Positions 512 to 24,042 of a DNA stretch of 39,031 nt are shown here, in pieces. Origin of the DNA: an uncultured Oscillospiraceae bacterium (GTDB taxonomy: Bacteria > Bacillota > Clostridia > Oscillospirales > Ruminococcaceae); the NCBI GenBank assembly GCA_949285935.1, contig CASEAH010000102.1:1-39031 (forward strand), written 5' to 3'. The notes beneath the pieces were generated by a model, which was not told the DNA's origin, ran no database searches, and saw only the letters and a list, made by a program, of their open reading frames with translations. Position 1 is the stretch's first letter, and each line of letters begins with the position of its first letter. The position numbers were made by a program, and so were the translations under genes.

Positions 512-557
512 AAAAAAGAAGGGCTGAGCAAGATGTTTTGCACAGCCCTTCTTTTTA
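512..557 (-). terminator. intrinsic terminator of the PTS operon
   Basis: Arms AAAAGAAGGGCTG and CAGCCCTTCTTTT form a stem around a loop of about 17 nt. On the minus strand the stem runs into TTTTTT. It begins at the ptsH stop codon (555-557), so it closes the operon. The A-rich side on the other strand makes it plausibly bidirectional. Confidence 0.75.
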
Positions 558-824
558 TTCGCTCAGTTCATTTTCAATTAAATTTGCCAATGCTTCCACA
601 GCTTCCTGTTCATCCGGCCCCTGGGCAGCGATCAGCGCTTCTTCACCGTGGGCCAGCCCCAAGGTAAGCAACAAAATAATGGACTTGGCATTGACCGCCT
701 TTGCATTACTCAACCGTTGGATCGTAATATCTGAGCGGTATTTGCCGGCGAGACGAACAAATTCCGAAGCCGGGCGGGCATGAAGCCCCGTTTCATTTTT
801 TATGATGACATTTTTTTCATACAT
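555..824 (-). CDS. ptsH: HPr-like phosphocarrier protein
   Basis: This 89-residue protein matches the size and fold signature of HPr, which carries phosphate from Enzyme I to the EIIA domains in the cytoplasm. The active-site motif GLHARPA places the phosphorylated histidine at residue 15. The NAKSI segment carries a serine (48) at the position equivalent to Ser46 of Gram-positive HPr, the target of HPr kinase. The start lies 8 bp inside the end of ptsI, so translation is probably coupled. It is the last gene of a leftward operon that also encodes EIIC, EIIB, EIIA, a regulator and Enzyme I. The general PTS genes usually sit apart from substrate-specific ones, so this HPr may be dedicated to the local transporter. 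Confidence 0.95.
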   Translation of the reverse strand: MYEKNVIIKNETGLHARPASEFVRLAGKYRSDITIQRLSNAKAVNAKSIILLLTLGLAHGEEALIAAQGPDEQEAVEALANLIENELSE

Positions 825-2564
825 CCATATCCACTCCCATTTTCGCTCGAAAGGCTATCAGCGTTTCTTTGATCTCTTTTTCCAGCCCCAAAGCAAGGAT
901 GTTTTGGGCAACGGTTTGGGCCTCCGCCATGCTTATATGGCGGATTGTTTGTTTGACGCCTGCAATGGAGGCAATTCCCATGCTGAACGAGCAAACGCCG
1001 AGCCCCAGTAAAGCGGGAATGGCCAGAGGATCGCCTCCTAGTTCTCCGCAAACGCCCACGCTTTTTCCCGCTTCCCAGAATTTTTGGGCCACATAACCGA
1101 TTAGCCGGAACATTCCAGGATGGTAGTCTTGGTAATAGGGTTTTACCAAGGGATTCATGCGGTCCGCCGCGCAGAGATACTGACAGAGATCATTGGTGCC
1201 GATACTGACAAAATCAACCTCTGCGGCAATGAGGTCGGCAATCATGGCCACCGCAGGGATCTCAATCATAACGCCGATTTTGATGCTGTGATTCCACGGG
1301 ATGTTGTTTTGGTCCAGCGCGATGCCTTCGTCCTGGATCATCGCTTTGAACCGGCGGATGTCCTCTAAAGAGCCTATCATAGGAGCCATAATGCAAAGAT
1401 TTCCAAAAGCAGAGGCCCGAAGCACCGCGCGCAGCTGTGTTCTGAAAATTTGTTCCTGGTCAAAGCAAAACCGGATCCCGCGAAGCCCCAGGAAAGGATT
1501 AGCCTCTACTGGAAGATTCAGATGCTTCAGCTGCTTATCCCCGCCAATATCCAGTGTGCGCAGCACCACCGGCTTTTCCCCAACTTTTCCCCAAAGCGTT
1601 CCGCCACTTTTTTATAGACATTGAATTGCTCCTCTTCGGTGGGCAAGTGGTCATCGGTTAAAAATAGGAATTCCGTCCGAAAAAGGCCGGAGCCGTCACA
1701 GTGGGCTGCTCCCAGCAGCTCCTGCGGATCCGCTGAAGTGATGTTCAGTCTCACCTGGATCCGCTCTCCGTCTTTCGTCACCGGTTCCGTGTCCAGAAAC
1801 TGTCTGATGTTCCGTTGTTTCTGCTCTAACTTTTGACGGAGCAGTTCGGATTTGAAAAGCTCTTCTGGAGTAGGCTGAACGGTAACAGTGCCTTCCAGGG
1901 CATCCAGAAGAACGGTTTCAGAATCTTTCAGTTGTGTCAAGGCATCCTGCACGCCAAGAATCGCAGGGATTCCAAAGCTCCTCGCAATAATGGCTGTATG
2001 GGAGGTGGAGCCGCCCACCTCGGCGATGATTCCCAGCACCTTTTCCCGGTCCAACGCTGCTGCATCACTGGGGAAAAGTTCCTCTGCCACGATGATAACC
2101 GGTTCAGAGAGCATCGTCAAATTTTTTTCTTCTCCGCCTAAGCAGCACCGGATCAATCTGCTTTTGACGTCGCAAAGATCGCTGGCCCGTTCCTTCATGG
2201 CGGTGTTTCCAGATTCTCTAAGTAATTGGGCGTAGGTGCTATAAACTCGTTCCACAGAGGAATCTGCGGACAAGCATTGTGTTGTAATTGCAGCGCGGAT
2301 TTCCTCATCCATGATCGGATCCGCCAGAATATCTTGGTGGGCAAGGAGGATGGCCGCTTGATCAGGATCATTGGTTTGCAGGCGTTCTACCAGGATCGTA
2401 AGTTCCCGGTTGGCCGCGGCTTTGGCCTTTTCAAATGTCTTTAGTTCTTCTTCTATCGCTGCAATTTCAATGTGGCGCATCTCTCTTGTTGATTGAAAGG
2501 GCGTATACAGCAGAACTTTTCCGGATACGATTCCCTCCGATACAGGTTTTCCAAAAAGCTTCAT
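817..2564 (-). pseudogene. ptsI: PTS Enzyme I, frameshifted by an 11-bp tandem duplication
   Basis: Enzyme I takes phosphate from PEP and passes it to HPr. The start ATG at 2564 gives MKLFGKPVSEG and follows AAAGGGG by 8 nt. The phosphohistidine is at residue 189 in GGSTSHTA, the same number as in E. coli. The C-terminal PEP domain holds the GVCGELGGDP motif with the catalytic cysteine. The frame breaks at 1573-1594, where CTTTTCCCCAA is repeated exactly in tandem. Deleting one copy gives a continuous 578-residue protein reading FGEKPVVLRTLD, the normal family length. As written, the upstream frame ends near 1527 after 25 or fewer aberrant residues, leaving the phosphohistidine domain without the PEP-binding barrel. 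A GTG at 1569 opens the downstream frame but has no good ribosome site. This could be a real reversible mutation or an assembly error. Confidence 0.93.
1573..1594. repeat. two tandem copies of an 11-bp unit inside ptsI
   Basis: CTTTTCCCCAA occupies 1573-1583 and again 1584-1594 with no mismatch. Eleven is not a multiple of three, so the extra copy shifts the ptsI frame. The one-copy state is in frame through the conserved GEKPVVLRT stretch. Confidence 0.95.
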
Positions 2565-2610
2565 CCGCATTTCCCCTTTATGTTTCATTTCAATTGCCCG
2601 CTTTTTCAGA

Positions 2611-4770
2611 TTATTCCATGTTGCCGTAGTATTGATAGAAAATCCGGACCAGATCTGATGTGCTGTCTGCGGAGGCCAGGTCGCGGACAAAATTGGGATG
2701 CGTTTCAATTAGATTCAGCAGCTCGTCCAATGCCCTGGCATGCTTTTCACTATCAACTAACGAGAGGGTCATTACAACAGAAATAGAGACTGCGCTTTGT
2801 TTCAGCTGGATGCAGATTGGGTGCTTCAATGTGATCATTGACATAGACAACTTGTTTTCGGGGCGGGGAGCCGCATGGGGCATACAGATTCCCGGTGCAA
2901 GGATGGAATAATTGTTGTATTCATTTTTTACCGCAATCATATCGTCAACATAGCCTTGGGTGATCGCACGGTTAGCCAACAAAATGCCGGCGGATTTTAC
3001 GACGGCTTCATCCCAGTCCTGCGCTTCCATATTTGCGCAAAAATTTTTCTGAGGCAAAATTTCCAGCAATGACGGGAAGCAGGGGGCTTTCTGCGCACTT
3101 TGAGCGGTCACCTCAATTAAGCCCCGAATATCTTTGATCAGCTTTTCTTTGTTTTGAATGGAGCAAGTATTGCCAATAATTCGTATCAGATCTTCAATTC
3201 GATGTTCCAAGTTATTGGAAACTGAGTTTTTCTCTTTGTTAAAAAATGACGCTATTCTGTTTATATCCGTTTTGGTCAGTATGGGATTGACCTGTAGAAT
3301 CGGTTTGACGAATGGGACCGGGATTCTGACGGTAGTTAACACCAGATCTACATTGGAAAAATCATAGTGGTTGATGTCGGACACCGACAGTTTTCCTACC
3401 ACCCTGATCCGTGGAAATTCCTTTTCTAACATGGTCTGTATCAGTTTGACAGTCGCGGTGCCCTGCCCGCACACCAGCGCCACCCGGGTAAAAAACTGGA
3501 GCTGCTGCGCACAGGCCTGTTTAACAGCGGCTTCGATATAAATAGCGAGAAAACCAATTTCGCTTTCGTCAAACGTAATCTGAAAACGACGTTGGATTTC
3601 CCCGGCGGCCTCCGTGCAGAGCGAGTATATTTCTTTGAAATTGTGTTTGATGTCATCCAGCAGCAGGTTGTTTTGGGGGACATTGAACTTGGACCGGATC
3701 ACAGCAAACTTCAGGTGTGACTGCAGGGCATCCATGAGCTCGCTGCCCGCTGATAGGGTTACATGCATTCTTTTCTGAACAATTTCAATGAAAATATCCA
3801 GAATATCGTTTGCAATTTTATTTTCCTGTTCTAGATAGATCCCGTTTTTGACCTTGCTGGTACTTACAATGTAAAGTGCAATGAGGCATATTTCTTCTTC
3901 GATTGCATCTGTATCAGATAAAAACTGGTTTAATACCGGATAGAGAGATTTTTGAATTGAATCATAGCCCGCGTATTTCCGGACTCTCTGAAATTGCCAG
4001 CCTTCTACTGTGCAGCGGCAGCCAGAGAAAATGCGGAAGATGCTGAAAAGGATATAGTAGAAAACCCAGAGAAAAGCATCGGCCGAAAGGGCGATCTCCA
4101 GGTTCTCGGAAATCTCATTTAAAACGTCGATCACCATATTGGGGTCTGCAATCTGGGTGATTTTTTTTAGAAGCAGGCTGTCTTCAATGAGCATGGTTCT
4201 GCGGTCTGGGGGCGGCGCGGGAATGATGCGATTAAAGAAGTTGTATTTGTCCGTATTCTCTGACAAATAACTGGCCACTGCGCTCCTCAACCGCATTTCA
4301 GAGGCGCAGAGATACAGGCCTCTTTTTTTGTCGCGGGACAAGAGAATATCGTTTTCCCTCAGCCAGCTCTCCGCGGCTTTCAGATCTTTGTTGATCGTGG
4401 CTCTGCAGACAAAAAGCTGCTCTGCAATATCCCGCTTCTTGATCCCCGAAGCATTCAAAATCAGCAGTTCGGAAATGATCTTTACCCGCTCTTTCACAGT
4501 GAGGTGAAGATCTTGATTGATGACGGCTCTGCTGTATTCCTGAAGCAAAAGGCGGGCCGCCGGCTTATCATTTAAGAAGATTCCCTTTTTGGGGATAGAT
4601 GAAAGGGCGATTCCGTTTTCATTTAGCCAGCTTTTCAAAAGGTTAATGTCGTATCGAATTGTCCGTTCACTGACATTGATCTTGGCAGAAATGCGCTTTA
4701 CCGTGATTGGAGCATTCTCTTCAGACAATATTTCTAGAATACCCAAACACCTGCTGGTTATTGTGATCAT
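2611..4770 (-). CDS. PRD-containing transcriptional activator, MtlR/LicR type, with EIIB and EIIA domains
   Basis: This 719-residue regulator has two N-terminal helix-turn-helix domains (about 5-60 and 95-160), two PTS-regulation domains (about 190-305 and 320-425), a Gat-type EIIB-like domain with Cys434 in VCGQGTA, and a C-terminal fructose/mannitol-type EIIA domain with His632 in MPHAAP. Such proteins bind DNA and sense PTS flux by phosphorylation. Of the usual PRD histidines only the first one of PRD2 is obvious (about 352, in SHLKFAVIR). The others appear replaced (LYIVS, IYIEA), so control may rest on PRD2 plus the EIIB/EIIA domains. ATG 4770 follows GGGGGG by 8 nt; the GTG 9 nt upstream is less well placed. 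It lies between gatA and ptsI and probably activates this operon. Confidence 0.9.
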   Translation of the reverse strand: MITITSRCLGILEILSEENAPITVKRISAKINVSERTIRYDINLLKSWLNENGIALSSIPKKGIFLNDKPAARLLLQEYSRAVINQDLHLTVKERVKIISELLILNASGIKKRDIAEQLFVCRATINKDLKAAESWLRENDILLSRDKKRGLYLCASEMRLRSAVASYLSENTDKYNFFNRIIPAPPPDRRTMLIEDSLLLKKITQIADPNMVIDVLNEISENLEIALSADAFLWVFYYILFSIFRIFSGCRCTVEGWQFQRVRKYAGYDSIQKSLYPVLNQFLSDTDAIEEEICLIALYIVSTSKVKNGIYLEQENKIANDILDIFIEIVQKRMHVTLSAGSELMDALQSHLKFAVIRSKFNVPQNNLLLDDIKHNFKEIYSLCTEAAGEIQRRFQITFDESEIGFLAIYIEAAVKQACAQQLQFFTRVALVCGQGTATVKLIQTMLEKEFPRIRVVGKLSVSDINHYDFSNVDLVLTTVRIPVPFVKPILQVNPILTKTDINRIASFFNKEKNSVSNNLEHRIEDLIRIIGNTCSIQNKEKLIKDIRGLIEVTAQSAQKAPCFPSLLEILPQKNFCANMEAQDWDEAVVKSAGILLANRAITQGYVDDMIAVKNEYNNYSILAPGICMPHAAPRPENKLSMSMITLKHPICIQLKQSAVSISVVMTLSLVDSEKHARALDELLNLIETHPNFVRDLASADSTSDLVRIFYQYYGNME

Positions 4771-4839
4771 CCCTTTCACCCCCCTTTTGCATTAGATCGT
4801 GATTTGTTGAGAATCATTGAAAATTATAGCGGCTGTCTA

Positions 4840-5310
4840 TTAGTTTTGGAACAGATATGCTTTAATCAACTGGCAGATCTCTTCTGCGTTTCCGGTGCGC
4901 TTAAAGCGATTACACCAATTTTCGTCGATAAACATTTCACTGATTCTGCTGAGGATGTCCAGGTGGAGATCAGGATTTTTCAGTGCCAAAACAAAAACGG
5001 CCTCCACGTCAACAGCTTTTTCCGGATCTTCCATACTGAAAAATGTCACTGGACGGAAACACTTTCCAACGGCAATGGCAGAGGTATTTACATCTGCCGG
5101 AGAGGTGTGAGCCAAAGCAATGTTGATATAAGGGAACATTAACCCGGTGGGATACTCCTTTTCGCGGGCGATCAGGTCCCCGGAAAACTGGCTGTTTACA
5201 AATCCCTGCGCCTCAAGCCTGACAGCTAAGGCGTTCAGGGCGTCTTCTTTTTGGGTGCATGTAAGGCAAGGGTCGATGGATTTTTCATTCATATTGATGA
5301 TTTGTTTCAT
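4840..5310 (-). CDS. gatA: PTS EIIA component, galactitol/fructose type
   Basis: The 156-residue product is a free-standing EIIA of the PTS_EIIA_2 fold, which moves phosphate from HPr-His to the EIIB cysteine. The active histidine is residue 68 in IALAHTSP. ATG 5310 is preceded by GGAG with a 6-nt gap; an earlier in-frame start at 5343 has no such site. It lies between gatB and the regulator gene, each about 70-115 bp away. The gap to gatB contains a perfect 39-bp hairpin. The substrate is unknown; similarity to galactitol components gives the family, not the sugar. Confidence 0.9.
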   Translation of the reverse strand: MKQIINMNEKSIDPCLTCTQKEDALNALAVRLEAQGFVNSQFSGDLIAREKEYPTGLMFPYINIALAHTSPADVNTSAIAVGKCFRPVTFFSMEDPEKAVDVEAVFVLALKNPDLHLDILSRISEMFIDENWCNRFKRTGNAEEICQLIKAYLFQN

Positions 5311-5365
5311 TTCTTGCTCCGTATTTGGTGATTGTTGGACCAATCAAAGCCACAGGGATCTGGTA

Positions 5366-5404
5366 AATTTGAGCATTGGTAAATTGTTTACCAATGCTCA
5401 AATT
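5366..5404 (-). repeat. perfect 18-bp inverted repeat between gatB and gatA
   Basis: The arms 5366-5383 and 5387-5404 are exact reverse complements around a 3-nt centre. No T-run follows the stem in the direction of transcription, so it is not a standard terminator. In mRNA it would make a very stable hairpin between two PTS cistrons and could set their relative levels by blocking 3'-exonucleases. As DNA it could be a binding site. The local regulator has DNA-binding HTH domains rather than an RNA-binding CAT domain, so an antiterminator target is unlikely. Confidence 0.85.
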
Positions 5405-5426
5405 GATACGGCAGGAGATCAGCGGT

Positions 5427-5723
5427 CTATTCAACAATCTCGTTCAAAGCGTTTTCTACTTCTTGAAATACTTTGCCTGCGTTAATGCCGGTCAAAAGAG
5501 GAGTACCGATAATGCTGCGCAGACCCTGTACATTTTTGACAGGACTGGATGTAACCAATACATCGATGGCCCCCAGCTCCGCCTTGGCCGGAATTTCCAC
5601 GAACTTGCAGATGTTGATGGAGACATCCTTCCTGCTCGTTTCCCGGAAATACTTTTCCAGCTTCATGGCGATACTTTTGGAGGTGCAGGTCCCCTGGCCA
5701 CATGCTACCATAATCTTTTTCAT
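5427..5723 (-). CDS. gatB: PTS EIIB component, galactitol type
   Basis: This 98-residue protein begins MKKIMVACGQG; the P-loop-like CGQGTCTSK carries the phosphorylated cysteine at residue 8. This is typical of EIIB-Gat, which passes phosphate to the substrate during transport by EIIC. Two consecutive ATGs (5726, 5723) follow GGGGGG; the second has better spacing (7 nt). It lies downstream of gatC and upstream of gatA. Its sequence is related to the EIIB-like domain in the regulator at 2611-4770, which shares the VCGQGTA pattern. Confidence 0.92.
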   Translation of the reverse strand: MKKIMVACGQGTCTSKSIAMKLEKYFRETSRKDVSINICKFVEIPAKAELGAIDVLVTSSPVKNVQGLRSIIGTPLLTGINAGKVFQEVENALNEIVE

Positions 5724-5797
5724 CATTTTACCCCCCAATATTTTTTATTAGATAACATAAAAGCGCAAAAGTCAATGGCACAGGCCGCAATCAGAGT

Positions 5798-7063
5798 TTA
5801 GTAGAAGAGGCCAAAGACCTTGTAGAGCAGTAAGTAGAGCGGGTTGGCACCAATGCCGAGGCTGTTGCCAATCACGCCTTCGCCATAACCTGCGCCAAGG
5901 GCGTTGGCAACTTCGGTATACATGGGGGCGGTAATGGTGCAGACATAAAGCGCAATGGTAAAGACAATCACGCCAGAGAGCACCCCTCTGAAAATATTTC
6001 CTTTGCAGTAGGGCACGCACATGGATACCAGGAAGGGCGCCGCAATGGCAAGATCCGCCATGGGGAGAAATTTGTTGCCTGGAAGGATAATGGCTAGGAC
6101 AAGAATGATGGGAACCAGCAGTAAACCGGCAGAGATCACGTCAGGCATACCGATGAGAATTGCGGCGTCAAGGCCGATATATAGTTTCCTCTTGAGTCGC
6201 TTCTCAGAAAATTCCCGCATGCCGTCGACGATGGGTAGGGTACCCTCTGCAAAGAAATGAATGCACTTGGGGAACAGAAGCATAAATGCAGTCAGCGTGA
6301 TGGCAAAGGATGCGATGTCGGCGACGGGAAGCTTTGCGACGATACCAAGAATAATACCGATTACAAACCCCAAGGTAGAAGGGTCGATGAGGCCGGAAAA
6401 TCTCTTTTCAATGGCCTCCCGGCTGATGTCAATTTTAGAAAGGAATGGGATTCTTTCCACAATGCTGTTGACCAAGAACCCGATAGGGGCAAAAATGGCG
6501 ACACTGCCATGGGGGATCGAAACACCCTCTAGATCAAATGTTTCAGCAATTTTGGGCGCGGTGATGTCTGCAATTTTGAGTGTAACGGCTTCGACAATAA
6601 AGAAGGTGAGGAAAGCAAAGAGAAGGTTTTCGCCGGAGAAATGGTAAACGACAACCGCGGGAATGGAGTACATGCCCCAGTTGCAAATATCGATGTTGAA
6701 CGTATCGGTAAACTTCACCGCGATCAGCAGGAGGTTGATAACCAAAGTGCCTGCTAAGAAAATGGAAAAATAGGAGAAATGATAGTTAAGGATTGAAAGG
6801 GAACCAGTTCCAATGTCGATCATGGAAAATTTGAAATTGGAGGACTCGATAACCCTTGAAAGAACGGGGCTGGCTGCACTGGCAAACATCCCGATCATGG
6901 TGTTCATGCCGACAACGCCTGTACCTACATACAATGCGCACTTAAATGCGTTCATGATTTTCAGCCTGCCAAGAAAAAGGGCGATGAGGAAAATGCCGAC
7001 CATCATAGAAACTGCAGCGGGTAGATTGAAGAACCAATTTAAGCCATTCATAATACTACTCAT
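5798..7063 (-). CDS. gatC: PTS EIIC permease, galactitol family
   Basis: The 421-residue product is a polytopic membrane protein of the EIIC-Gat family, the translocation channel that hands substrate to EIIB. Long hydrophobic segments cover most of the chain. The family-like stretches include YHFSGENLL, PHGSVAIFAPIGF and GIGANPLYLLLYK at the C-terminus. ATG 7063 follows AAGGGG by 8 nt. It is the first gene of the leftward operon, downstream of a candidate promoter at 7149-7176. The usual galactitol partners (dehydrogenase GatD, tagatose-bisphosphate aldolase GatY) are absent. The divergent neighbours are TrpB- and TrpA-like instead, so the substrate is probably not galactitol. Confidence 0.93.
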   Translation of the reverse strand: MSSIMNGLNWFFNLPAAVSMMVGIFLIALFLGRLKIMNAFKCALYVGTGVVGMNTMIGMFASAASPVLSRVIESSNFKFSMIDIGTGSLSILNYHFSYFSIFLAGTLVINLLLIAVKFTDTFNIDICNWGMYSIPAVVVYHFSGENLLFAFLTFFIVEAVTLKIADITAPKIAETFDLEGVSIPHGSVAIFAPIGFLVNSIVERIPFLSKIDISREAIEKRFSGLIDPSTLGFVIGIILGIVAKLPVADIASFAITLTAFMLLFPKCIHFFAEGTLPIVDGMREFSEKRLKRKLYIGLDAAILIGMPDVISAGLLLVPIILVLAIILPGNKFLPMADLAIAAPFLVSMCVPYCKGNIFRGVLSGVIVFTIALYVCTITAPMYTEVANALGAGYGEGVIGNSLGIGANPLYLLLYKVFGLFY

Positions 7064-7148
7064 TCATGACACCCCTTTTGAAAATTTGAAGCGCGGTTTC
7101 AAAGTCGAAAGAAAGTTCCCCCTCCAGATAAAGGACTTCTTTAATTTC

Positions 7149-7176
7149 ATTCTAACATTTTTGGAATGATTGAAAA
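7149..7176 (-). promoter_or_regulatory. candidate promoter of the PTS operon
   Basis: On the minus strand TTTTCA (7171-7176) and TAGAAT (7149-7154) are 16 bp apart. The -10 box is preceded by TGT, making it an extended -10. It lies 86 bp upstream of the gatC ATG in the AT-rich divergent region. The weak -35 is consistent with activation by the operon's PRD regulator. Confidence 0.45.
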
Positions 7177-7328
7177 GTTTAGATATTTTCACTGATTTAT
7201 GCTGCAGTATTCGACAATAATCATGAGCCTTTCCATTTTGCATACTGGTGTAGCTCTTTCCTAAAAAGCCTTCATTCCCAGGAAAAACAGCAGCTTTTGC
7301 AGGGCTTTTGGATGAAAAAAAGTGAACT

Positions 7329-7357
7329 TTTCCGAAGAAAAGCACTTATGCTAATAT
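7329..7357 (+). promoter_or_regulatory. candidate promoter of the Trp-synthase-like operon
   Basis: TAATAT at 7352-7357 with TGC in front forms an extended -10 box. The sequence 17 bp upstream (TTTCCG) is a poor -35. It lies 57 bp before the TrpB-like ATG. Together with the PTS promoter it defines a 350-bp divergent control region without any gene. Confidence 0.45.
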
Positions 7358-7413
7358 GAATTCGAAGAACTGCGGCGCCAGAAGGCCGCAACGATAAAAG
7401 GAGGGGTGAAGCG

Positions 7414-8424
7414 ATGGCACTTTTTAAAAAAGAGCTTCGATTGGCAAGGTGGTTTGGTGATTTCGGTGGAGATGCCTTTGACAATGACTTCGTTACTCAG
7501 CCGGATAAAGGACCGCAGATCATAAATGCGTTATGTGCGGAGGATTTCGAGCCCTGTTTCAGGGAAATACTAAGCGCCATCCTTCCGGCGCCACTGCGGA
7601 TCAACAGCGTGTTTCTCCAAAGGGGTACGGAGTTGCTCTTGGCACCTGCATACGGCAAGTATTACAGCCTTGCAGGACAGTTGGCGTTGGCCCGGATGCA
7701 AAAGAAAACCCAGATTTATACCGCGACTTATTCTCGAGAGGTGGCGCAGGCAGTGGCTACCGCCTGTCAGAGGTTCGGTTTTGAGCTGACCATTTTTTTG
7801 GGGGCAAAACTTTCCCAGGATGCCCAGCTCGTCCAGACGCTGAAAGATCAAAATCACCATGTAGATCATCAGATGAGCTCGGAACTGCTGGATCTTCCCT
7901 ACTTTTATCTGGAACCAGGCATAACTGACCGCAGTACCAGCTTTGTGCTGCAGGCCGGCGCGAACTACGGCAACTATCCCCAACCGGCGCTGGTTGGTGT
8001 TCTGGCGGGCCTGTATGGGCAGGATCTGAAGAGAGCTTTGCCAACAACGCCGGAATGCCTGGTTGTCCCAATTTCGGACGGAACGGAAGCGATTGGCGCT
8101 TTCAAAGCTTTTATGGAGGACGAGTGCAGACTGATCACGGTAGAAGAAGCGGTTTCCCAAGAATACCATATTGTAGACTATTTTTCCTACACCCTTTCCA
8201 CCCGAAGCGCAGATGCGGAAAAACCCAACACAACTATCTGTCCTGAGCTCGCGTACTGGTGGAGGCAGGGGAAGGTTCTGCGCCTGGGCTGCGACAGGAT
8301 CCGCCCGGTGAACACATCCGATCTGGTTGACACCGGCCTTTCCCCACTGACGGCAAGGGCGGCTGCTCTGGCTTTGGAACAAAAAGAATTTCACAGAATG
8401 CTGGTACTGGAGGGAATGAGATGA
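7414..8424 (+). CDS. divergent TrpB-like PLP-fold protein
   Basis: This 336-residue protein resembles tryptophan synthase beta but is clearly not a standard TrpB (about 400 aa). The N-terminal GDFGGDAF recalls the TrpB GxFGG start. The segment LQRGTELLLAPAYGKYYSLAGQ aligns with [20 protein letters not shown] in TrpB and puts Lys82 at the PLP Schiff-base lysine (quoted here only as landmarks). The next segment reads TATYSREV where TrpB has ETGAGQHG, so the catalytic glutamate is missing. The PLP phosphate loop GGGSNA appears as SDGTEA. It may use PLP differently or be a non-catalytic partner. AAAGGAGGGG lies 7 nt before ATG. Its stop overlaps the next start (ATGA), implying coupled synthesis with the TrpA-like proteins. 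Confidence 0.7.
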   Translation: MALFKKELRLARWFGDFGGDAFDNDFVTQPDKGPQIINALCAEDFEPCFREILSAILPAPLRINSVFLQRGTELLLAPAYGKYYSLAGQLALARMQKKTQIYTATYSREVAQAVATACQRFGFELTIFLGAKLSQDAQLVQTLKDQNHHVDHQMSSELLDLPYFYLEPGITDRSTSFVLQAGANYGNYPQPALVGVLAGLYGQDLKRALPTTPECLVVPISDGTEAIGAFKAFMEDECRLITVEEAVSQEYHIVDYFSYTLSTRSADAEKPNTTICPELAYWWRQGKVLRLGCDRIRPVNTSDLVDTGLSPLTARAAALALEQKEFHRMLVLEGMR

Positions 8425-9260
8425 ACCGTATTGACGCACTTGCGAAAGCCAGCAGAAGAGGTGAAGGCATTCTAAGCGTTACCCTGTGTCCCAATGGCGC
8501 AAGGGAATATGGCAACATGCTGGAACGGGTGGATTTTTTGGTAAACTGCGGCTTAAATCAGCTGATGCTGATCTACCTTGACCCTGATGCCGGGAAAATC
8601 GCTGGGATTGCGCCTACAGAGATGCGGTTGGTAAAACAGGAGACCGCAGAGGGCGTTTACCGTGAAATGTTCCTGGACAACGTAAGAGAGATTCGCCGGC
8701 GGTACTCTCAACTGCCCATTATTGGGACTGTTCAGGTGGGCGAAGCCATCTGTTACGGCGCGGGCAGGCTCTTCCAACACTTTCATGAAGTTGGGGTTGA
8801 CGGCATTGATACTCCTTGCTATGTTGCCTCAGAGGATCCCATCGGTTTCCGGAAGCAGGCAGAAGAGGCGGGAATCCATTTCCTCGGTGCCGTATTTACC
8901 GACAATCTTGACATGAAGGACCCCGACCAGCTTAAAAAATTAGATAATGTAGTAAAAGTCTGCAAGGGCGAATTGCTCTTTGTTCCTACTGTGCAGGGGT
9001 CCACCAAGTCTCTCAGCGGCGAAAAATTTCGACCCATTGTGCAGCATATCCGGGAAGTTCAGGCCAAAAACGATATACACGCCAAAATCATCAGCATCAG
9101 TGGCATCAACACGCCGGAGGACGCATATCAGCTGGTTCATGTAGCTGGCACCGATGGCGTACATTTTTCTTCAGCATTTATTAAGAGGCTCTTGGCCGGG
9201 CAGCCATATGAAGCCATCGGAAAGTGGCTGCGGGAAACAAAGGCCGCTATGCAGTGGTAA
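8421..9260 (+). CDS. TrpA-like TIM-barrel protein lacking the catalytic acids
   Basis: The 279-residue product aligns along its length with tryptophan synthase alpha. PIIGTVQVGEAICYGAGRLF matches the strand-4 region of TrpA, and GVDGIDTP matches AGVDGLIIPD. SGINTPEDA...GTDGVHFSSAFIK matches the C-terminal phosphate-binding region (GIS..E...GADGVIVGSAIV). At the position of TrpA Glu49/Asp60 (LELGxPFSDPLADG) it reads LMLIYLDPDAGK, so both catalytic acids seem lost. It may be a structural partner for the next gene product, a changed enzyme, or a barrel bound to a different phosphate ester. ATG 8421 overlaps the TrpB-like stop. An intact paralogue follows 41 bp downstream. Confidence 0.65.
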   Translation: MNRIDALAKASRRGEGILSVTLCPNGAREYGNMLERVDFLVNCGLNQLMLIYLDPDAGKIAGIAPTEMRLVKQETAEGVYREMFLDNVREIRRRYSQLPIIGTVQVGEAICYGAGRLFQHFHEVGVDGIDTPCYVASEDPIGFRKQAEEAGIHFLGAVFTDNLDMKDPDQLKKLDNVVKVCKGELLFVPTVQGSTKSLSGEKFRPIVQHIREVQAKNDIHAKIISISGINTPEDAYQLVHVAGTDGVHFSSAFIKRLLAGQPYEAIGKWLRETKAAMQW

Positions 9261-9301
9261 CAGTTTTTTTGAATCACGGTTGCGGAACGGGAGGATAATT
9301 G

Positions 9302-10078
9302 ATGAATCGAATGGATAAAGTGTTTGGCCGTCTGGCTGAGCAAGGCAAGAAAATATTGGTGCTCTATTTTCCCATTGGAGATACCATTTTGGATGATGAT
9401 TGCCTGTGGGCGGGCAGATATTTTGACAATGGATGTACTGTTCTGGAGATTGGCTTGCCCTATCATGATCCAGTATTGGACGGAAAGACAGTTAAAGATT
9501 CCATGCAGCGGGCTTTGAAAAACAAAAGCCTGGACGAGATCTTTGCAGCCATTGGTAAGCTACGGAAACAGTTTCCCGATAATATCCTCCAGATCATGAC
9601 CTATTACGAAATTATTCAGGCCGCAGGTATTCAGAATTTCGCAAAAATCTGCGGCGCCATCGGGATCGATGGAGTCCTGACTCCCAATATTCCCCTGGAG
9701 AAGATTCCTCTTCTGGACCAGGCTTTGGGGCAATATGATATCTATAATCTCCGCTTTTCTCCGTTTCACCTTACAGATGCTGTCATGGAAGATTTTAAGA
9801 AGAATGCCAAAGGGTATATTTTTCAGCAAGCGGTAGACGGCGGCACTGGCCCCCGGTCCACCGTTTCGGATCAGGTTGGGAAAAATGTGGCGCTCCTTAA
9901 AAATGCGGGGATTATGGTACCTGTGGTAGCGGGGTTTGGCATTTCCGATGCCAGCCAGGTAAAAGAGACGATTGCAATGGGGGCGGACGGCATCGTGGTT
10001 GGCAGTGCGACCATCTCGCATATTATCCAGGGAGATGGCGTCTCGTTTATCAGAAGCCTGTACGAAGCCACTAAATAG
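9302..10078 (+). CDS. TrpA-like lyase with catalytic residues retained
   Basis: This 258-residue protein is close to TrpA length (about 265). TrpA splits indole-3-glycerol phosphate into indole and glyceraldehyde 3-phosphate. LEIGLPYHDPVLDGKT keeps the Glu49 and Asp60 equivalents. DGGTGPRS matches the loop-6 VTGAR arginine region. GFGISDASQ and GADGIVVGSA match the phosphate-binding glycines. ATG 9302 follows GGGAGG by 7 nt; a TTG just upstream is less likely. No trpC, trpD, trpE, trpF or standard trpB is near. Placed opposite a complete PTS operon, it may act as a retro-aldolase on an imported phosphorylated compound. That role is inference; the barrel assignment is firm. Confidence 0.78.
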   Translation: MNRMDKVFGRLAEQGKKILVLYFPIGDTILDDDCLWAGRYFDNGCTVLEIGLPYHDPVLDGKTVKDSMQRALKNKSLDEIFAAIGKLRKQFPDNILQIMTYYEIIQAAGIQNFAKICGAIGIDGVLTPNIPLEKIPLLDQALGQYDIYNLRFSPFHLTDAVMEDFKKNAKGYIFQQAVDGGTGPRSTVSDQVGKNVALLKNAGIMVPVVAGFGISDASQVKETIAMGADGIVVGSATISHIIQGDGVSFIRSLYEATK

Positions 10079-10092
10079 ACGAAAAACTCAAC

Positions 10093-10127
10093 AAAACCCC
10101 ACGCAGGCTGTCTTGCAGAGGGTTTTC
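10093..10127 (+). terminator. weak intrinsic terminator after the TrpA-like genes
   Basis: AAAACCC (from 10093) pairs with GGGTTTT (to 10126), enclosing a second small stem GCA...TGC. It begins 15 bp after the stop codon. The T-run is short. Confidence 0.4.
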
Positions 10128-10972
10128 AAATCGGAACTGGTTAACGACTAAAAAGTTTACGGGACAAAAGTACCGGCCGGTCCCGCCTGTACTGCGGATA
10201 GAGCACATTCCATGGCGTACATTTCCTTAGGGCATCTGGCATACAGCACGGCAGAACCTTTCCGCCAGAATGTTCTGTCGTTTCCTGGCTTCGCAGTGGC
10301 CGGCGCCGATGCAAGGTGCGACAGCAGTCCGTGGGAATGCTGCGGCGTGTCTATCGGACCAGCGCGGTCTGAACTCCGGAAAATCGTCGTACCAAACCAG
10401 GCCCCCGGTTTAGCCGGAGGGCCTGACAGCGTATTCTGCCCATTATGGGCGGCTAATTGAAACCCTTCATCGTAATCCGTGTGCCGGCAGAAGCTGCAGA
10501 TTTCCCAATTCGACCGTTGAGGCAAAGCAAACTTCTCTGCGCCCCTGTTTCACGAACGCCACATAGTTAAGCGCGCAGAGAAGGAAACGCGCCGGCAGAG
10601 GAATTACTGTCCGATGTACTATGTTGCTTCCCTGCGCTCTCTGGTTCCCCAATGACCTGGGCTGCTTCGCCCCTACTTCTGCTTGTGGCGCGCGTATCAC
10701 CGCCTGCCGTGCTCAATTACTGGTGTAAGTGGCGTCTGCGGACCTATCAGCGACACACGATACTCCAATTTGCAGAGAATGGCCAAGATGAAAGAGCGGA
10801 GTCAACAGACAATTTGCGCCGTCTCCTGGCCGCTGCCCTTCTTGACTGCCGATTTTCGTGGCGTATTTTTTGAAGGGGATGCAGTGCACCATGTGACCTC
10901 AATTTGCTGGAAATTCGAAGAATCCTGCGGAGAGGGGGGGTATGCCAAAGGCGGGGCATCCGGAGCGTACGC
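10128..10972. other. 845-bp GC-rich stretch without a recognisable gene
   Basis: All open frames here lack ribosome sites and look compositionally random. One imperfect hairpin (CAGGCCC ... GGGCCTG, 10398-10425) is present with no T-run. Base composition is richer in G and C than the preceding PTS/Trp-like genes. The stretch may be a decayed gene or a junction between the PTS locus and the bla operon. Confidence 0.5.
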
Positions 10973-11049: not shown

Positions 11050-11412
11050 ATGGAAGAAACAAAACTGGGCGTCATCGAGAGCCGCTTCGCGGACCTGATC
11101 TGGGCCCATGCGCCCCTGACCTCCGGAGAACTGGTGAAGCTGTGCCAGGAGGAACTGAAGTGGAAGAAGTCCACCACCTACACGGTGCTGAAAAAGCTCT
11201 GTGACCGGGGACTGTTCCGCAACGACGGCGGCACCGTCACCGCCGCAATTTCCAAAGAGGAATTCCACGCCATGCAGAGTGAGCGGTTCGTGGAGGAGAC
11301 CTTTGATGGGTCCCTGCCGGCGTTTGTCGCCGCCTTCACCAGCCGGAAAAAACTGTCGGAGGAGGAGATCGGTCAGCTGGAACAGCTGATCCGGAAAAGC
11401 AGGGAGGGTTAA
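11050..11412 (+). CDS. blaI: BlaI/MecI/CopY-family transcriptional repressor
   Basis: This 120-residue protein has the winged-helix domain of the BlaI family (residues about 5-75, including KKSTTYTVLKKLCDRGLF), followed by a helical dimerisation tail. BlaI dimers repress their own operon and are inactivated by proteolysis when the partner sensor BlaR1 is activated, classically by beta-lactams. ATG 11050 follows AGGAGGG by 4 nt. Two matching operators lie at 10984-11035, so autoregulation is likely. blaR1 starts 3 bp after the stop. No beta-lactamase gene is nearby. Because blaR1 is interrupted, this repressor may be permanently on. Confidence 0.93.
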   Translation: MEETKLGVIESRFADLIWAHAPLTSGELVKLCQEELKWKKSTTYTVLKKLCDRGLFRNDGGTVTAAISKEEFHAMQSERFVEETFDGSLPAFVAAFTSRKKLSEEEIGQLEQLIRKSREG

Positions 11413-11415
11413 GCC

Positions 11416-13593
11416 ATGGGAGATTTCCTCGCTTATGAGCTGCTGCCCATCGTCCTGAACATGACCCTGACCGCCAGCATCGTGATCGCTTTCGTCCTGC
11501 TGGCCCGGCTGGCACTGAGGCGGGCGCCCCGGATCTGCTCCTATGCCCTGTGGCTGGTGGTGCTGTTCCGGCTGCTGTGTCCGGTGTCGCTGACGGCGGA
11601 CATCTCCCTGATGGGCCTTCTGGACACGCCGGTGACGGAGGTGACGGCCCGCACCAGCGCGGCGGCCTATGTGCCCCGGGACGTGGTCCATAATCCGGAG
11701 CCGTCGGTGACACTGCCGGTGCCCGGGGTGGGCGAGGCTATCACGGAGGCTCTGCCTCAGGGGGAGGAGCAGACTGTGGCCGATCCCCTGGAGGCTCCCA
11801 TGGCCATTGCCACCATCCTTTGGCTGACAGGTACGGCTGCCATGGTGATTTACGGCGTGGTGTCTTTGCTCCGACTGCGTCGGCGGCTGGTGGGGGCGGT
11901 GCCTCTGGAGAAGGGAGTCTATCTGGCGGACCACATCAGTACGCCTTTCGTGCTGGGCCTGGTCCGGCCGAAGATTTACCTGCCCTCCGCCCTGCCGGAG
12001 GGGGAGCGGAGCTACATTCTGCTCCATGAGCGCCACCACATCCGGCGGCTGGATCATGTGGTGAAGCTGTTGGCGTTTTTGGCCCTTTGTGTCCACTGGT
12101 TCAACCCGCTGGTGTGGCTCATGTTTGTACTGCTGGGCAGGGACATGGAGATGAGCTGCGACGAGGCGGTGATGAAGAAGCTGGGGGAGGCCGTCCGGGC
12201 AGACTACTCCGCATCGCTCCTGCGCCTGGCCACCGGGCGGAAGATCATCGCCGGGGCGCCGCTGGCCTTCGGCGAGGGAGACACCCGGGACCGGGTGAAG
12301 AACGTGCTGCGGTGGAAGGAGCCGAAACTCTGGCTGGTGATCCTTTCCGCGGCGGTGGTGGTGGTTTTCGCGGTGGTGTGCGGGACCAACGCCGACAATA
12401 AAAGCACGGTTCAGACGAAAGCCACGGAAAACGGCATGGAGATAACGCTGACCATAAAAGAACCGGTCCGCTCCTACGCTGTGTACGAGGAGGTCTATCA
12501 GGATGGGCGGCTGGTTTCCGGAAAGCCGGTGCTGATCAGCGGATTTTCGGAGGACCACTGGGAAGCAATGCCCTACCGGCACACGTTCACCCTCCGTACT
12601 GAGGCGGCGCAACTGACCGGCGGCGGGTATTCCGGCAAACTGGACATCTAGTGTGAAGAAAACAGCACCGTGTCCCACCGGGCGCTGTTGCTGCCCGGGA
12701 CCGGGTACACCAGGCTGGACAGCGTGGTGGGCACCGGCAATCTGGAAGGAACTCTGTCGGAGGAGACCCACCGCCTGCGGGCAGGCGGCAGCGCGGTGCT
12801 TTACACACTGGTGCTCTCCACGGACGGCTCTATCTGCGTCTACCACAACGGCTGGAGTCTGGCAAAGGTCAACGACACGGTGATCCAATACCGCCTGGTG
12901 ACCTCCTCGGAGACGGCGGAGATTTATCAGGACATGCCCCTGGATCTGGCGCAGAGCCTCTATGACCTGCGGGTGGAGACGCTGAACAGCCCGGAGGACC
13001 CCGGCGCGCAGACCGGAACGCCGGGGCCTTGCCTCTACGCCTACCGGATCTCGGCGAAGTACGGGGAGCTGGCTGAGTGTATTCCACTGACGGAGGAGCA
13101 GCTTGCAGCAATTGAGGGCGAGGCGCTGCAGCCCATTACCCAGGGCTTCGGCTTCTCCGCCTCGCTGCACACGGAAGAGAAGACCATCTCTTACAGCGAG
13201 GTCCCCGGCGTCCCCTGAACGGTGGTGGATCTGGCGGTGGAGCACTGTGACTACCGCTTTGCTGACCCTGGATATATCACAGAGCCTGCACTGGCTGCCG
13301 TGCTGGAGGGGGACTGGCTGAGCGAGCCCCGCCAAGTTGTTGCTGAGGCAGACCTAAACTTGCTGGTGGAAATCCTGAAAACCGCGGAGTTCGGCTATGT
13401 GGGCGGCTGCGGCTATGGCGCCAAGGTGACATTGACTTCCAAAAGCGGAGAGCGGTTCACCTTTTTCAAGGGCACCGACGGCTGCGATACCGTGGCCTTT
13501 GGCTCCTGGAGCAGCTACTTCCTGGGAGACGCCGAGAATACGGAGTTCTGGCAAATCTTCGGCCTGGACCCAGAGACCAAGGAGCCCTTGTAG
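11416..13593 (+). pseudogene. blaR1: BlaR1/MecR1-type M56 metallopeptidase sensor with two in-frame stops
   Basis: The frame stays continuous for 726 codons from ATG 11416 to TAG 13593 but carries TAG at 12649-12651 and TGA at 13216-13218. The first 411 residues hold four or so membrane helices and the M56 zinc motif HERHH (His204, Glu205, His208) with the downstream SCDEA. A last helix lies near 310-330. The remaining extracellular part is not a clear penicillin-binding domain. It continues in the same frame past both stops with normal coding character, including a terminal segment with GYVGGCGYGAKVTL. Both stops are one G-to-A change from TGG (Trp). As written the peptidase half may still be made, but the sensor half is lost. 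Readthrough cannot be excluded. Confidence 0.85.
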
Positions 13594-14598: not shown

Positions 14599-17500
14599 TC
14601 AGCCGGCTTTTCTGCGCTTATACAGCCACAATCCGGTTCCTGCCGCTGCCAGAAGCGCCGCCGCTGCAAGCCGCAGCAGGATGTTGTTCTGAGAGGCTGC
14701 TGCCGAAGCAGTTCCATTTCCGGAAACGTTTTCTTCGGGCTGTGTCAGCTCCGGCACAATGGCCATGCCCAGATCAGGAGGAGTGATCTCATCCAAAGTA
14801 AGGGCAGATTCATTCTCCTGGACAGGAGCAGTAACTTCCACCAGACCGCCGGTCTGAGAATTGAAAATCTGGGGAGTGGTTACGGAGAAATTCATCTCTG
14901 CCAGATAGGAGAGGGGATAATACACCCGTCCGACCTCGGTTTTGAGAGCTGCGGAAGAGGGAATGATGATATCCTCGCCGCCGTTCCAGGTAATGTGCAG
15001 GGTAACGCCGTCGACTTTATCCAGTGCTTCCATCACAGACGGGGGCATCCGGTCATAACCCGCGGCATTGGCCTTGACGGTATCGCCGCTTTGAGCCTTT
15101 TCCAGTTCCTTAAGAACCTGCTGCCAGAAGTCATCCTCGCCGTCACGGTAGCTGCTGCTGCCGCCGGACTGGATTTCGGTCCAGCCTACAGCGATGGGGG
15201 AAAGTCCGGTAACGGTAAAGCGGATGCCGTCGGTCGTCTTGGAAACAGACGGAGTCTCCGTTTCGCCAGGAGTCTTTCCAAAGTCGCTGGTGGTGAACAT
15301 ATGGATGACCTTGAAGTTGTGGGTGGTGCGGGAGGTTCCCTCGGGATAAGGCAGCACGACAGTCAGTTTGCCGTTGGAGGGGAAGTTTTCTTTTGTGGCG
15401 GGGAACCAGGTTTTCCGCCATCTTCGCTGACCATCAGGGTCACATCGTAGATGGCCCGGTTTCCTTCCGTCACGCCCAGATTTGTGATCTGGGTTTTGAG
15501 CATCCGCCCAATTTTTGCCGGGGTATTCAGATCGGGATTCTTTTCCAGTTCCTCAGGTACGTTGGAAATGCCTTCTTCAATCTCCAGCTTGTAGTCGTTG
15601 TCATCCTCCACGGGAGGCTCCACAGGCTGCTGATCCACCTTGTTGATGGATGCAGTCACAACAGGACCGGAGGCAGGCAGCTGATAATTGTCTGCCTGAG
15701 CGCCGTTGAGAACTCCGCCTGCCACCGACAAGGTCACATCCTGTGTATGAGGTTCTGCGGTGGCAAAGTCCGGAGCTGTCAGTGCGGTATACGCAAAGGA
15801 CACGTCATCCCCATCCAGTACGCCGGTGATGTTCAGCATACCGGCAACAGCAGCAGCGGAAACAGTGCCATCATAGGCTTTGTCTGTGGTGATGCCATCG
15901 GTATTCCAGGCGAGGGCCTTGGGAACTACCAGAGTAGTGGTGCTGACAGCAGCGCCGGAGAACCCGGTATTTCCGCTGTAGACAGCATAGACGGTATGGC
16001 TGCCTGCGGTGAGGCTGGTTCTGTCCAGGGTGAGCTTCACTTCGCCGGAAAGCTCCTGAGCCGCCCCTGCCTTGTGAGCCTCATCGGTGCCGTCCAGATA
16101 GAACTGCACTGTTCCGGTCAGTTCATCGGGATCGGAAGGATCGGCCTTAGCTGCGGTAAAGGTATAGGTAACGGTATTGCCGTAGGTGACGCCGGTGCGG
16201 TCAGGGGTGAGGGCCAGGTTTACCAGACCCTTGTCGGTGACGGCCACACGGGCCGTCGCTGTGGCGTCAGTATAGTTTTCATCTGCGGCGGAAGCGCTGA
16301 AAAGGAGTGTTCCTCCCACGGGTGTGTCGTTTGGAATGGTATAACTTCCGCTCCAGCTGCCGTCCTCGTTCTTTGTCAGAGGAATGTTCTTCCCGTCCGG
16401 ACCGGTCAGCAGTACCGTGCCATCCGGCTGTATCCATCCGCTTTCCATCAGATTGGATTCCATATTCTTTGCGGCGATGGTGATTTTCACCGGGCTTCCC
16501 ACCTTCTGAGCGGAGGGAGTTGTGGTGAGGGTCAAGCCCATAGCAGCCTTTTGAATGGTGAACCGGTCGGTTCCTTCAAAGACGATGGTATAGTTGGGAT
16601 TCTGCTCGTCTGTCAGGGTGCCCTGGGTCAGGTCATAGCTTCCCACCCCTTCTCCCGGCTCACGGGAGAGAACACCGGTGAGACTGTCGCCGATGACCAG
16701 GCCGCTGTCAGCCGCGCCTGCAACAGCCGAGGTGGTGTAGGTGAAAGCGGGATCGGTCTGGCCGTAGGCCTTGGAAGCTGCCTGAGCGATGACGGACACC
16801 GGACGGCGGGCGATGGTCAGCGCCAGATCCTGCTGGGTTTCCGCCGCGCCATAGTTGCCCTGGGCATCAATGGCGGCCTTTACCTGATAGCTTCCCGCCT
16901 CGGCAGGCAAGCCGTCCCTGTAAGCGCCGTTCTGTGTTTTGTACTGCCACCGGAAGGTTCCGGTATAGGTTTCACCGTTTTGCAGCGTCACCACAGGAGC
17001 GGCAACGGCTGCCGGACTGCCGTTATAGGTGACAGTCTGGGTATTGTCCGTCCAGCTGAGAACCGGTTGGGCGGGATTGATCTGTACCGTTACGGTTCCC
17101 ACCGCGGACTGATACTGAGAACTGTCGGGAGTAAAGATGACCTGATAGGTTTTGCTTCCGATGCTGTCCGGCTTTTGTGTGCTGTCGGCCCAGGCAAAGG
17201 AACCGGCAACAGCGCCGTTAACGCTCTCTGCCGCGCCGCCGGTGAGACGGGATTCCGCCAAAGTCTGGCCGTAGACGATGTCCGAAGCCTCAGGCCACTG
17301 GGTGACGGTTACAGGCACAGAACCAGCTTCATAGCTGAGAAGATAAGCGCCCACTTCAGAAGGCGGCAGGGCAATGAATTTTTCTGCCTCAAAGGGAGAA
17401 CCTTCCAGGGGAACCGCTGTGCTCGGATTCTTACCCATCAGCACCGAAATGGATTTTTCCGCAGAGGCAGGGGAAACGGTAAGGGGGACATCCTGATCCA

Positions 17501-21208: not shown

Positions 21209-21384
21209 TTCTTTTTCTCCTTCCAAAGATTACAGGGGGTATCCACACTGTCTTTCATGATTTCAAGCAGCTCCATGAGGCTTGAAAAAGGCCTGGGGTT
21301 CTCCGATGGGGGAGATCAGACAAAGCCCTGCCACTCACTGTACTGCGTTCCGGTAATGGTGATTTTCAGGGTTTGTTCTTTCAT
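21205..21384 (-). pseudogene. small cytosolic-type protein gene with internal TGA
   Basis: A 60-codon frame from ATG 21384 to TGA 21205 is interrupted by TGA at 21316-21318 (codon 23). It reads MKEQTLKITITGTQYSEWQGFV, stop, then SPPSENPRPFSSLMELLEIMKDSV (split in two pieces here). With Trp at the stop it matches, from memory, a family of short clostridial proteins with WQG...W...F.S..ELL. AGGAGG lies 10 nt upstream of the ATG. It overlaps the preceding stop (ATGA) and the start of the surface protein (ATGA), so it bridges both by coupled translation. One G-to-A change from TGG would explain the stop. Confidence 0.55.
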
Positions 21385-21713: not shown

Positions 21714-21810
21714 GCCTAAAACCTCCTTCCTTCCATGGGGTGATATATTTCCATATATTTAGGTACAAAAAATTCCAAAAACTCTCACCCGGAAAATAAA
21801 TTTTTTTAAA

Positions 21811-21853
21811 AAAATTGCGGCCAAACAGACAGTCTGTTCAGCCGCAATTTTTG
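21811..21853 (-). terminator. intrinsic terminator of the sigma-factor operon
   Basis: AAAATTGCGGC (21811-21821) pairs with GCCGCAATTTTT (21841-21852), with an inner AACAGAC/GTCTGTT stem. On the minus strand the stem is followed by TTTTTTT. It lies directly after the PrsW stop codon. Confidence 0.85.
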
Positions 21854-21858
21854 CAGGA

Positions 21859-22503: not shown

Positions 22504-22509
22504 TATAAA

Positions 22510-23967: not shown

Positions 23968-24042
23968 TTATACCGCCTCCTGCCAATCATCATATCAGCT
24001 CTACCTGTCAGCAGATGATTTCAGTTCTTTGTACAGTCTATT

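Follow-up and report, generated by a model that had tools for sequence, protein, structure and literature searches.

A phosphotransferase system set opposite tryptophan synthase-like genes hints at an undescribed breakdown route in an Oscillospiraceae bacterium

What might relatives of both tryptophan synthase subunits be doing when they are encoded divergently from a set of genes for a phosphotransferase system (PTS)? The question is raised by contig CASEAH010000102.1 of an uncultured Oscillospiraceae bacterium (assembly GCA_949285935.1), the whole of which (39,031 nucleotides) is the stretch that we analysed and call the window; the genome comprises 2.44 Mb in 110 contigs, of which this is C102, and is 89% complete. 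The locus hints at an undescribed route for breaking down an imported compound. It is made up of the following elements, compared where indicated with a related cluster of Candidatus Fournierella merdigallinarum (see below):

555..824 (-): ptsH, encoding a private HPr; PF00381 at 102 bits, 33% identity to the HPr of the Fournierella cluster
817..2564 (-): ptsI, encoding a private enzyme I (EI), whose reading frame an 11-bp tandem duplication disrupts; Pfam detects EI domains in each of the two pieces
2611..4779 (-): PTS-controlled regulator with HTH_11, Mga HTH, PRD and EIIA_2 domains, plus a weak IIB-like stretch
4840..5343 (-): EIIA (PTS_EIIA_2), FruA/GatA-like; 98.9 bits, 32% identity to the Fournierella EIIA
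5427..5738 (-): EIIB (PTS_IIB), UlaB/GatB-like; 32.1 bits
5798..7063 (-): EIIC of the GAT family; PF03611 at 163 bits, cut-off 24.2
7064..7413 (no strand): divergent control region, 350 bp
7414..8424 (+): TrpB-like protein of 336 residues, with most of the machinery for pyridoxal phosphate (PLP) and serine gone
8421..9260 (+): TrpA1, a remote TrpA-like barrel without Glu49 and Asp60, whose start overlaps the TrpB-like stop (ATGA)
9299..10078 (+): TrpA2, a TrpA-like barrel in which the catalytic and phosphate-binding residues are retained; its ATG lies at 9302

A first-pass annotation of the window had described gatC-gatB-gatA-regulator-ptsI-ptsH running leftward, with one TrpB-like and two TrpA-like genes divergent from them across a shared control region of 350 bp; we recovered this content and order, and the gap at 7064-7413 has exactly that length. 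Its interval of 2564-10078 began at the ptsI start codon on the minus strand and left ptsI and ptsH (555-2564) outside, and its description of a complete private PTS holds for gene content but not for intactness, the ptsI frame being broken. As it had also stated, the open reading frames (ORFs) and a Pfam scan reveal no dehydrogenase, kinase, isomerase or standard aldolase among the cluster proteins, galactitol-1-phosphate 5-dehydrogenase included, and the Trp-like proteins are therefore the sole local candidates for carbon chemistry. A PF03611 EIIC accompanied by separate EIIA and EIIB proteins places the system in the GAT family, yet the EIIC scores 306.6 bits against the GatC equivalog TIGR00827, under the cut-off of 542, and is thus not assigned to GatC; the best NCBIfam match of the EIIB is ascorbate IIB and the second galactitol IIB, both far under their cut-offs. 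The cluster resembles the ascorbate (ula) and galactitol (gat) operons in its PF03611 EIIC, its separate EIIA, EIIB and EIIC and its PRD-type regulation, but differs from them in that it has no GatD-type dehydrogenase, aldolase or Ula enzyme, in that its EIIC falls under the GatC cut-off, and in that Trp-like proteins are present instead. The ula system, whose UlaA belongs to the PF03611 family, processes its PTS product with UlaD, a barrel of the ribulose-phosphate type. Comparison of the control region with Rfam gave no match up to E=1, only imperfect inverted repeats were seen from which an operator motif could not be defined, and promoter-like sites across 6900-10400 were not in excess (4 observed, 3.3 in shuffled sequences).

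We consider that these sequences are best explained by a PTS-fed catabolic module in which TrpA2 serves as a C-C lyase, a reading to which we give about an even chance. The GAT-type PTS would import a polyol- or sugar-like compound and phosphorylate a terminal hydroxyl; TrpA2, with the acid/base pair Glu49 and Asp60 and a phosphate site, would cleave the phosphorylated product at a C-C bond, so that a triose phosphate, probably glyceraldehyde 3-phosphate, enters glycolysis. A second complex, of TrpA:TrpB shape, would consist of TrpA1 and the TrpB-like protein, the latter as a partner without PLP; it would either turn the PTS product into something cleavable, as an isomerase or epimerase might, or deal with the other fragment, and the PRD regulator would switch the two divergent transcripts with PTS flux. 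That an entire tryptophan synthase has in this way been turned into a sugar- or polyol-degrading machine, consisting of a PTS, a TrpA-derived C-C lyase and a new two-subunit enzyme built from a non-PLP TrpB and a re-invented TrpA, is a more tentative proposal, which we rate somewhat short of an even chance.

By content the locus is not tryptophan synthesis, in agreement with the first-pass annotation. The cluster holds no other trp gene, indole-3-glycerol phosphate synthase (IGPS, PF00218) was found in none of the 10 genomes of the genus, the source genome included (14/14 control genomes were positive), and TrpA (PF00290) was found in one of the ten, solely as the window's own pair; as 3/10 of these genomes are at least 90% complete and the source genome is 89% complete, absence of the pathway is uncertain. 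A TrpA2 working in tryptophan synthesis with a cellular IGPS and TrpB would thus find no IGPS in this sample. Besides the TrpB-like protein, the source genome has three matches to the PALP family, two of them by eye of the cysteine synthase or desulfhydrase type and the third, at 56.6 bits, on contig C110. Since the search turned up no way for the cell to make indole-glycerol phosphate itself, the phosphorylated substrate would most likely be provided through the PTS.

A second instance of the neighbourhood came from a sample of the family, in a metagenome-assembled genome (MAG) of Candidatus Fournierella merdigallinarum, which belongs to the same family and another genus and whose contig DXAC01000118.1 encodes a protein 43% identical to the TrpB-like protein over residues 1-334. 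All nine components common to the two loci (TrpB-like, TrpA1, TrpA2, EIIA, EIIB, EIIC-GAT, the PRD/EIIA regulator, EI and HPr) lie there within 10 kb, on one strand and in the order regulator, HPr, EI, HAD hydrolase, EIIC, EIIB, TrpB-like, TrpA1, EIIA, TrpA2. Identity between the loci is 64% for TrpA2, 42-43% for TrpA1 and the TrpB-like protein and 31-32% for the EII parts, and the regulator counterpart (8796-10694 of the fetched locus, L037) is 22% identical. A neighbourhood shared with a second genus is more than chance, and the co-occurrence of the Trp-like trio with a GAT PTS, on which the first-pass annotation had wished to see its idea judged, is in this one genome reproduced in full. 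The HAD-family hydrolase of the Fournierella copy (L037 6017-6688, minus strand), which lies between EIIC and ptsI and has no counterpart in the window cluster, may hint at a phosphorylated side product.

Beyond these two genomes the module was absent from all nine other genomes of the source genus (59-97% complete, several of them 59-86%) and from the other four of five genomes of the Fournierella MAG's genus, in which the MAG itself gave the only TrpB-like match (1/5). In partly overlapping samples of the class, the family and the relatives, the TrpB-like protein matched 1/391 class genomes at E<=1e-12 (its own), 5/396 family genomes at E<=1e-10 (its own, the Fournierella MAG and three partial matches) and 21/61 relatives at E<=1e-3. 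The three partial family matches (G577, G734 and G802; 29-30% over residues 82-246, with TrpA alongside) and 20 of the 21 among relatives (23-30% within residues 81-263) were set aside as ordinary TrpB, as were 12 plasmid records (27-29% over about half of the query; trpB where annotated); viral contigs gave no match. A scan for two exact peptide motifs in 84,980 species genomes, a procedure that would miss relatives lacking those peptides, returned 56 stretches, of which one was a relative, on the same Fournierella contig. A TrpA2 profile found 35/385 family genomes at E<=1e-36, with the Fournierella MAG at 560 bits and the next at 149, and 27/391 class genomes at E<=1e-30, with the source genome at 555 bits and the next at 134; the lower-scoring matches in both were taken as ordinary TrpA. 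In the plasmid collection TrpA1 had no match and TrpA2 matched 109 records (best 31.8% among the matches listed), while the member search of the phage collection gave 10 records at 28-31%. Two plasmid TrpA proteins considered as further PTS-linked cases, from Enterococcus raffinosus and Lactobacillus helveticus, sit in trp operons (judged from ORFs by eye and from annotation, respectively) and were rejected.

TrpA2 is the only one of the three Trp-like proteins to pass its equivalog model (TIGR00262, 152 bits, cut-off 102.35), and it matches the BX1 structure 1tjr (E 2.6e-22). We aligned it, using E. coli numbering, with a panel of 53 TrpA proteins (51 from 57 fetched loci, 6 of which had no full-length TrpA, with two repeats of the same gene, plus those of E. 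coli and E. raffinosus). TrpA2 retains Glu49, Asp60, Tyr102, Thr183, Gly184, Phe212, Gly213, Gly234 and Ser235; both TrpA2 proteins have Glu at 49, as do 52/53 of the panel, and Asp at 60, where the panel has Glu (31/53) or Asp (22/53). Among the 43 positions tabulated they depart from the panel at Asp130 (Asn; panel Asp 53/53), Tyr175 (Phe; Tyr 52), Leu177 (Gln; Val 47), Thr24 (Pro; Thr 50), Asn104 (Glu or His; Asn 51), Ser178 (Ala; Ser 49) and Ile153 (Phe; Leu 40), other changes being smaller; an apparent Ile153 to Arg change was rejected, the Arg sitting at 152 and Phe at 153. At 20 catalytic or pocket positions the two TrpA2 proteins agree in 19, against 64% identity overall (permutation p 0.001), and four pairs of true TrpA proteins at 42% identity gave 18-19/20. 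We infer from this pattern a working enzyme whose reaction centre has been kept and whose aglycone side has changed in part. The splitting of a glycerol-phosphate side chain by a TrpA-like lyase, as foreseen by the first-pass annotation, finds support in TrpA2, which keeps the residues that such a retro-aldol cleavage needs, and not in TrpA1, which has neither Glu49 nor Asp60; the two genes, which it had treated alike, are not equivalent. The evidence speaks neither for nor against the aryl polyols and C-glycosides that it had proposed as substrates. In a tree with true TrpA proteins the stems of TrpA2 and TrpA1 measure 3.1 and 4.9 changes per column, and the join of TrpA2 with E. coli TrpA was flagged as a meeting of long branches, so that the place of TrpA2 among TrpA proteins is unsure.

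Such divergent barrels might instead have become isomerases or epimerases, like other ribulose-phosphate-type barrels, so that TrpA2 would act within a PTS-fed catabolic pathway while a housekeeping aldolase encoded elsewhere cleaves the skeleton; a general aldolase, if present, would remove the need for a local one. The retention of Glu49, Asp60 and Thr183 in both genomes, together with the 19 conserved pocket positions, speaks against this alternative, which we regard as unlikely. A different possibility is indole salvage, in which the PTS would import indole-3-glycerol or a close aryl-glycerol and TrpA2 would yield indole and glyceraldehyde 3-phosphate in the manner of BX1/IGL. The positions that we take to contact indole are mostly hydrophobic in TrpA2 (Tyr23, Val65, Met100, Tyr102, Leu127, Phe153, Phe175 and Phe213), and no tryptophan pathway was found in the genus, but position 177 (Val in 47/53 of the panel) is Gln in both TrpA2 proteins, Asp130 and Tyr175 are replaced by Asn and Phe, and the TrpB-like protein could hardly convert indole into tryptophan. 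We know of no evidence that free indole-glycerol serves as a nutrient, and consider this route very unlikely. TrpA2 shares with BX1/IGL the condition of a TrpA-type lyase outside tryptophan synthesis, but differs in its PTS context, in its pocket substitutions and in that no source of indole-glycerol phosphate was found in the genome.

The TrpB-like protein is a remote relative of TrpB that fails the NCBIfam trpB model (TIGR00263, 40.6 bits, cut-off 392), and its Fournierella counterpart matches no Pfam family at E<=0.01. Compared with a panel of 50 TrpB proteins (48 of them from the 57 loci, the other two from E. coli and E. raffinosus), both TrpB-like proteins have lost residues invariant in all 50, namely His86, Glu109, Gly111-His115, Gly232, Gly233, Asn236, Glu350 and Ser377-Gly378, while other such residues are retained, including Gly13, Gly14, Gly93, Thr110 and Gly234. 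Glu109 is Ala in the window and Gly in Fournierella; the GAGQH serine loop (50/50) has become YSREV and FRKEQ, respectively; the GGGSN phosphate loop (50/50) has become SDGTE and ADGTG, in which only Gly234 remains; and the C-terminal Ser377 region is absent. We dropped a supposed loss of the PLP lysine, Lys87: the window has Lys there, Fournierella has Trp immediately followed by Lys, and the alignment can shift by one residue. Of 24 comparable positions in the PLP/serine pocket, 9 are identical between the two TrpB-like proteins, no better than the 43% found overall (p 0.77), whereas four pairs of true TrpB proteins at like divergence gave 21-24/25. Given these losses at Glu109, in both loops and at the C-terminus, and a former pocket no better conserved than the remainder of the protein, PLP-dependent serine chemistry is unlikely; the protein is probably not a PLP enzyme, contrary to one of the roles suggested by the first-pass annotation, that of a PLP enzyme for the aglycone. 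Its predicted structure is poor (predicted local distance difference test 56, predicted template-modelling score 0.58), and we have therefore not read the active site from the model, although a Foldseek search with it ranked TrpB first (E 4e-9, template-modelling score 0.43).

TrpA1 has the TrpA fold and is likewise a remote relative (Pfam Trp_syntA at 29.1 bits, cut-off 27; 21.9, under the cut-off, for its Fournierella counterpart). It carries Gln at 49 and Gly or Met at 60 in place of the catalytic acids and has lost most TrpA catalytic and phosphate-binding residues, though part of the phosphate site is kept, and the alignment places altered pocket residues at Gln47, Asp130 and His248. In both genomes the TrpB-like stop and the TrpA1 start overlap as ATGA, and the two proteins have diverged equally (42-43%), whereas TrpA2 stands apart and in Fournierella lies behind EIIA; the overlap and the equal divergence suggest a TrpB-like:TrpA1 complex, with TrpA2 separate.

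Plants offer the nearest precedent that we found in the literature, in a TrpB pseudoenzyme termed TSB-like, in which the indole-activating Glu is nearly always Ala, which activates TSA and which is said to have arisen through two key residue changes, the second being Asp to Glu (PMC12727527). The TrpB-like protein is alike in being a TrpB relative with Ala at the indole-activating position (Gly in Fournierella), and differs in that it has also lost the PLP loop, the serine loop and the C-terminus, in that its probable partner is TrpA1 and in that it is encoded with a PTS. The Asp in question presumably corresponds to Asp305 of E. coli, where the window has Pro and Fournierella Asp, in a poorly aligned stretch. 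One could accordingly imagine an allosteric pair of the plant kind, in which the TrpB-like protein as a pseudo-beta subunit binds and activates TrpA2 rather than TrpA1, giving one stimulated lyase with TrpA1 as an accessory. This would accommodate the loss of the same Glu, but not the ATGA coupling and matched divergence that link the TrpB-like protein to TrpA1, nor the Fournierella EIIA gene that separates TrpA1 from TrpA2; no Asp to Glu change of the plant kind is apparent in the poorly aligned stretch around Asp305, and Lys167, Arg141 and Arg175, on the TrpB side of the known interface, are not conserved, in a weakly aligned stretch. We judge the allosteric arrangement distinctly unlikely.

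Compared with TrpA and TrpB proper (TIGR00262 and TIGR00263), then, the trio is alike in that TrpA2 passes the TrpA model with its catalytic set kept and in the B-then-A order with an overlapping start, as in trp operons, and unlike in that the TrpB-like protein fails its model, a second, non-canonical TrpA is present, the cluster has no further trp gene and the genus sample yielded no IGPS.

The PTS genes may have a less uniform history. The EII parts are 31-32% identical between the two loci and 34-37% identical to unrelated GAT systems, and the private EI is nearer to the other EI of its own genome (55/42%) than to the Fournierella EI (44/33%), for which reasons we considered whether each locus had recruited its PTS independently. 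In a tree of 22 selected EIIC-GAT proteins, 15 of them hand-picked from over 400 plasmid records, the two loci nevertheless join as sisters (support 88/63, 92% of bootstraps, not starred). Common descent of the EIIC is thus possible, and the private EI looks separately recruited. A single EIIC-GAT match, partial in one case, is present in seven of the nine other genus genomes; the source genome has a second EIIC-GAT, on contig C106, which in the same tree forms a clade with those of G002, G003 and G005 away from the window EIIC. Of four related plasmid GAT loci, two have galactitol-1-phosphate dehydrogenase beside the PTS, one has other dehydrogenases and an aldolase, and the annotation of the fourth shows no sugar dehydrogenase and no aldolase; the window cluster differs in having no such dehydrogenases or aldolase. 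The best match of the window EIIC in the plasmid collection, in a Klebsiella record (L099 1187-7239), has as annotated neighbours a phospho-2-dehydro-3-deoxyheptonate aldolase, an FGGY kinase, an SDR and a 2-hydroxyacid dehydrogenase, with no annotated EIIA or EIIB in the stretch.

Is the module still in use in this strain? An 11-bp unit in two exact tandem copies at 1573-1594 (Tandem Repeats Finder: period 11, 2.0 copies, 100%) splits the private ptsI into two frames and cuts its PEP-binding domain in two: the beginning of that domain lies in one ORF (1527-2708), together with the N-terminal and mobile domains, and its remainder in the other (817-1569). Together with the absence of the cluster from the nine other genomes and with a G+C content of 45-52.5% in the cluster genes, against 55.6% at 28000-39031, this would fit a rare, partly decayed acquisition without a present function. 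The flank at 21000-28000 is itself low in G+C (50.5%), so that base composition leaves acquisition possible and does not establish it; all eight other genes are open, the TrpA2 pocket is strongly conserved, and the Fournierella copy has an intact ptsI and a G+C content similar to its flanks. The duplication could be a recent event or an assembly fault, and the contig has another frame break at about 20430, in a very large gene that by eye encodes a surface protein-like product (15363-21226, minus strand) and is split at about 20372-20456 into ORFs of 284 and 1697 residues. We hold present-day lack of function to be highly improbable.

Several points weigh against a PTS-fed module with TrpA2 as lyase. 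Its conservation rests on two genomes (n=2), and the module is very rare. The reaction of TrpA2 may not be a retro-aldol, because Asp130 and other positions have departed from the panel and its stem is very long, and the pocket positions scored in the TrpA and TrpB comparisons are those of the Salmonella and E. coli structures. The PTS genes may not have been inherited together, since the EII parts of the two loci are no closer to each other than to unrelated GAT systems and the private EI is closer to the other EI of its own genome than to that of Fournierella. Finally, the broken private ptsI could mean that the module is in decay in this genome, although contig C70 carries a further EI-type gene in a single open frame.

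Elsewhere on the contig, a pair of ordinary genes, by eye a BlaI-like repressor and an M56 peptidase-like protein, lies downstream of the cluster (11050-12651, plus strand). A thiamin pyrophosphate riboswitch (28932-29041, minus strand) lies ahead of an ORF (28265-28852) for a small membrane protein that looks, by eye, like part of a thiamin transporter, and is also ordinary. A T-box leader (29874-30124, plus strand; 95.1 against a gathering score of 93) precedes ORFs that by eye encode an XRE-cupin-like regulator (30091-30765) and an acyl-CoA-ligase-like protein (30762-32444).

Our literature search, by titles and the starts of abstracts among the matches listed, yielded nothing linking a PTS with TrpA- or TrpB-like clusters. 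An experimental case in which PTS and aldolase combine is that of E. coli that, once made to express a class II aldolase, evolved to use D-tagatose by way of a modified PTS (PMC10101011). The window's own locus points to a substrate that can be sought. To our knowledge, no TrpA belongs to a degradation route fed by a PTS. Among two-subunit enzymes with channelling, tryptophan synthase is the standard example, and a TrpB relative without most of its PLP machinery, next to a TrpA relative whose pocket has been altered, would be a natural experiment on how the alpha/beta scaffold can be reused.

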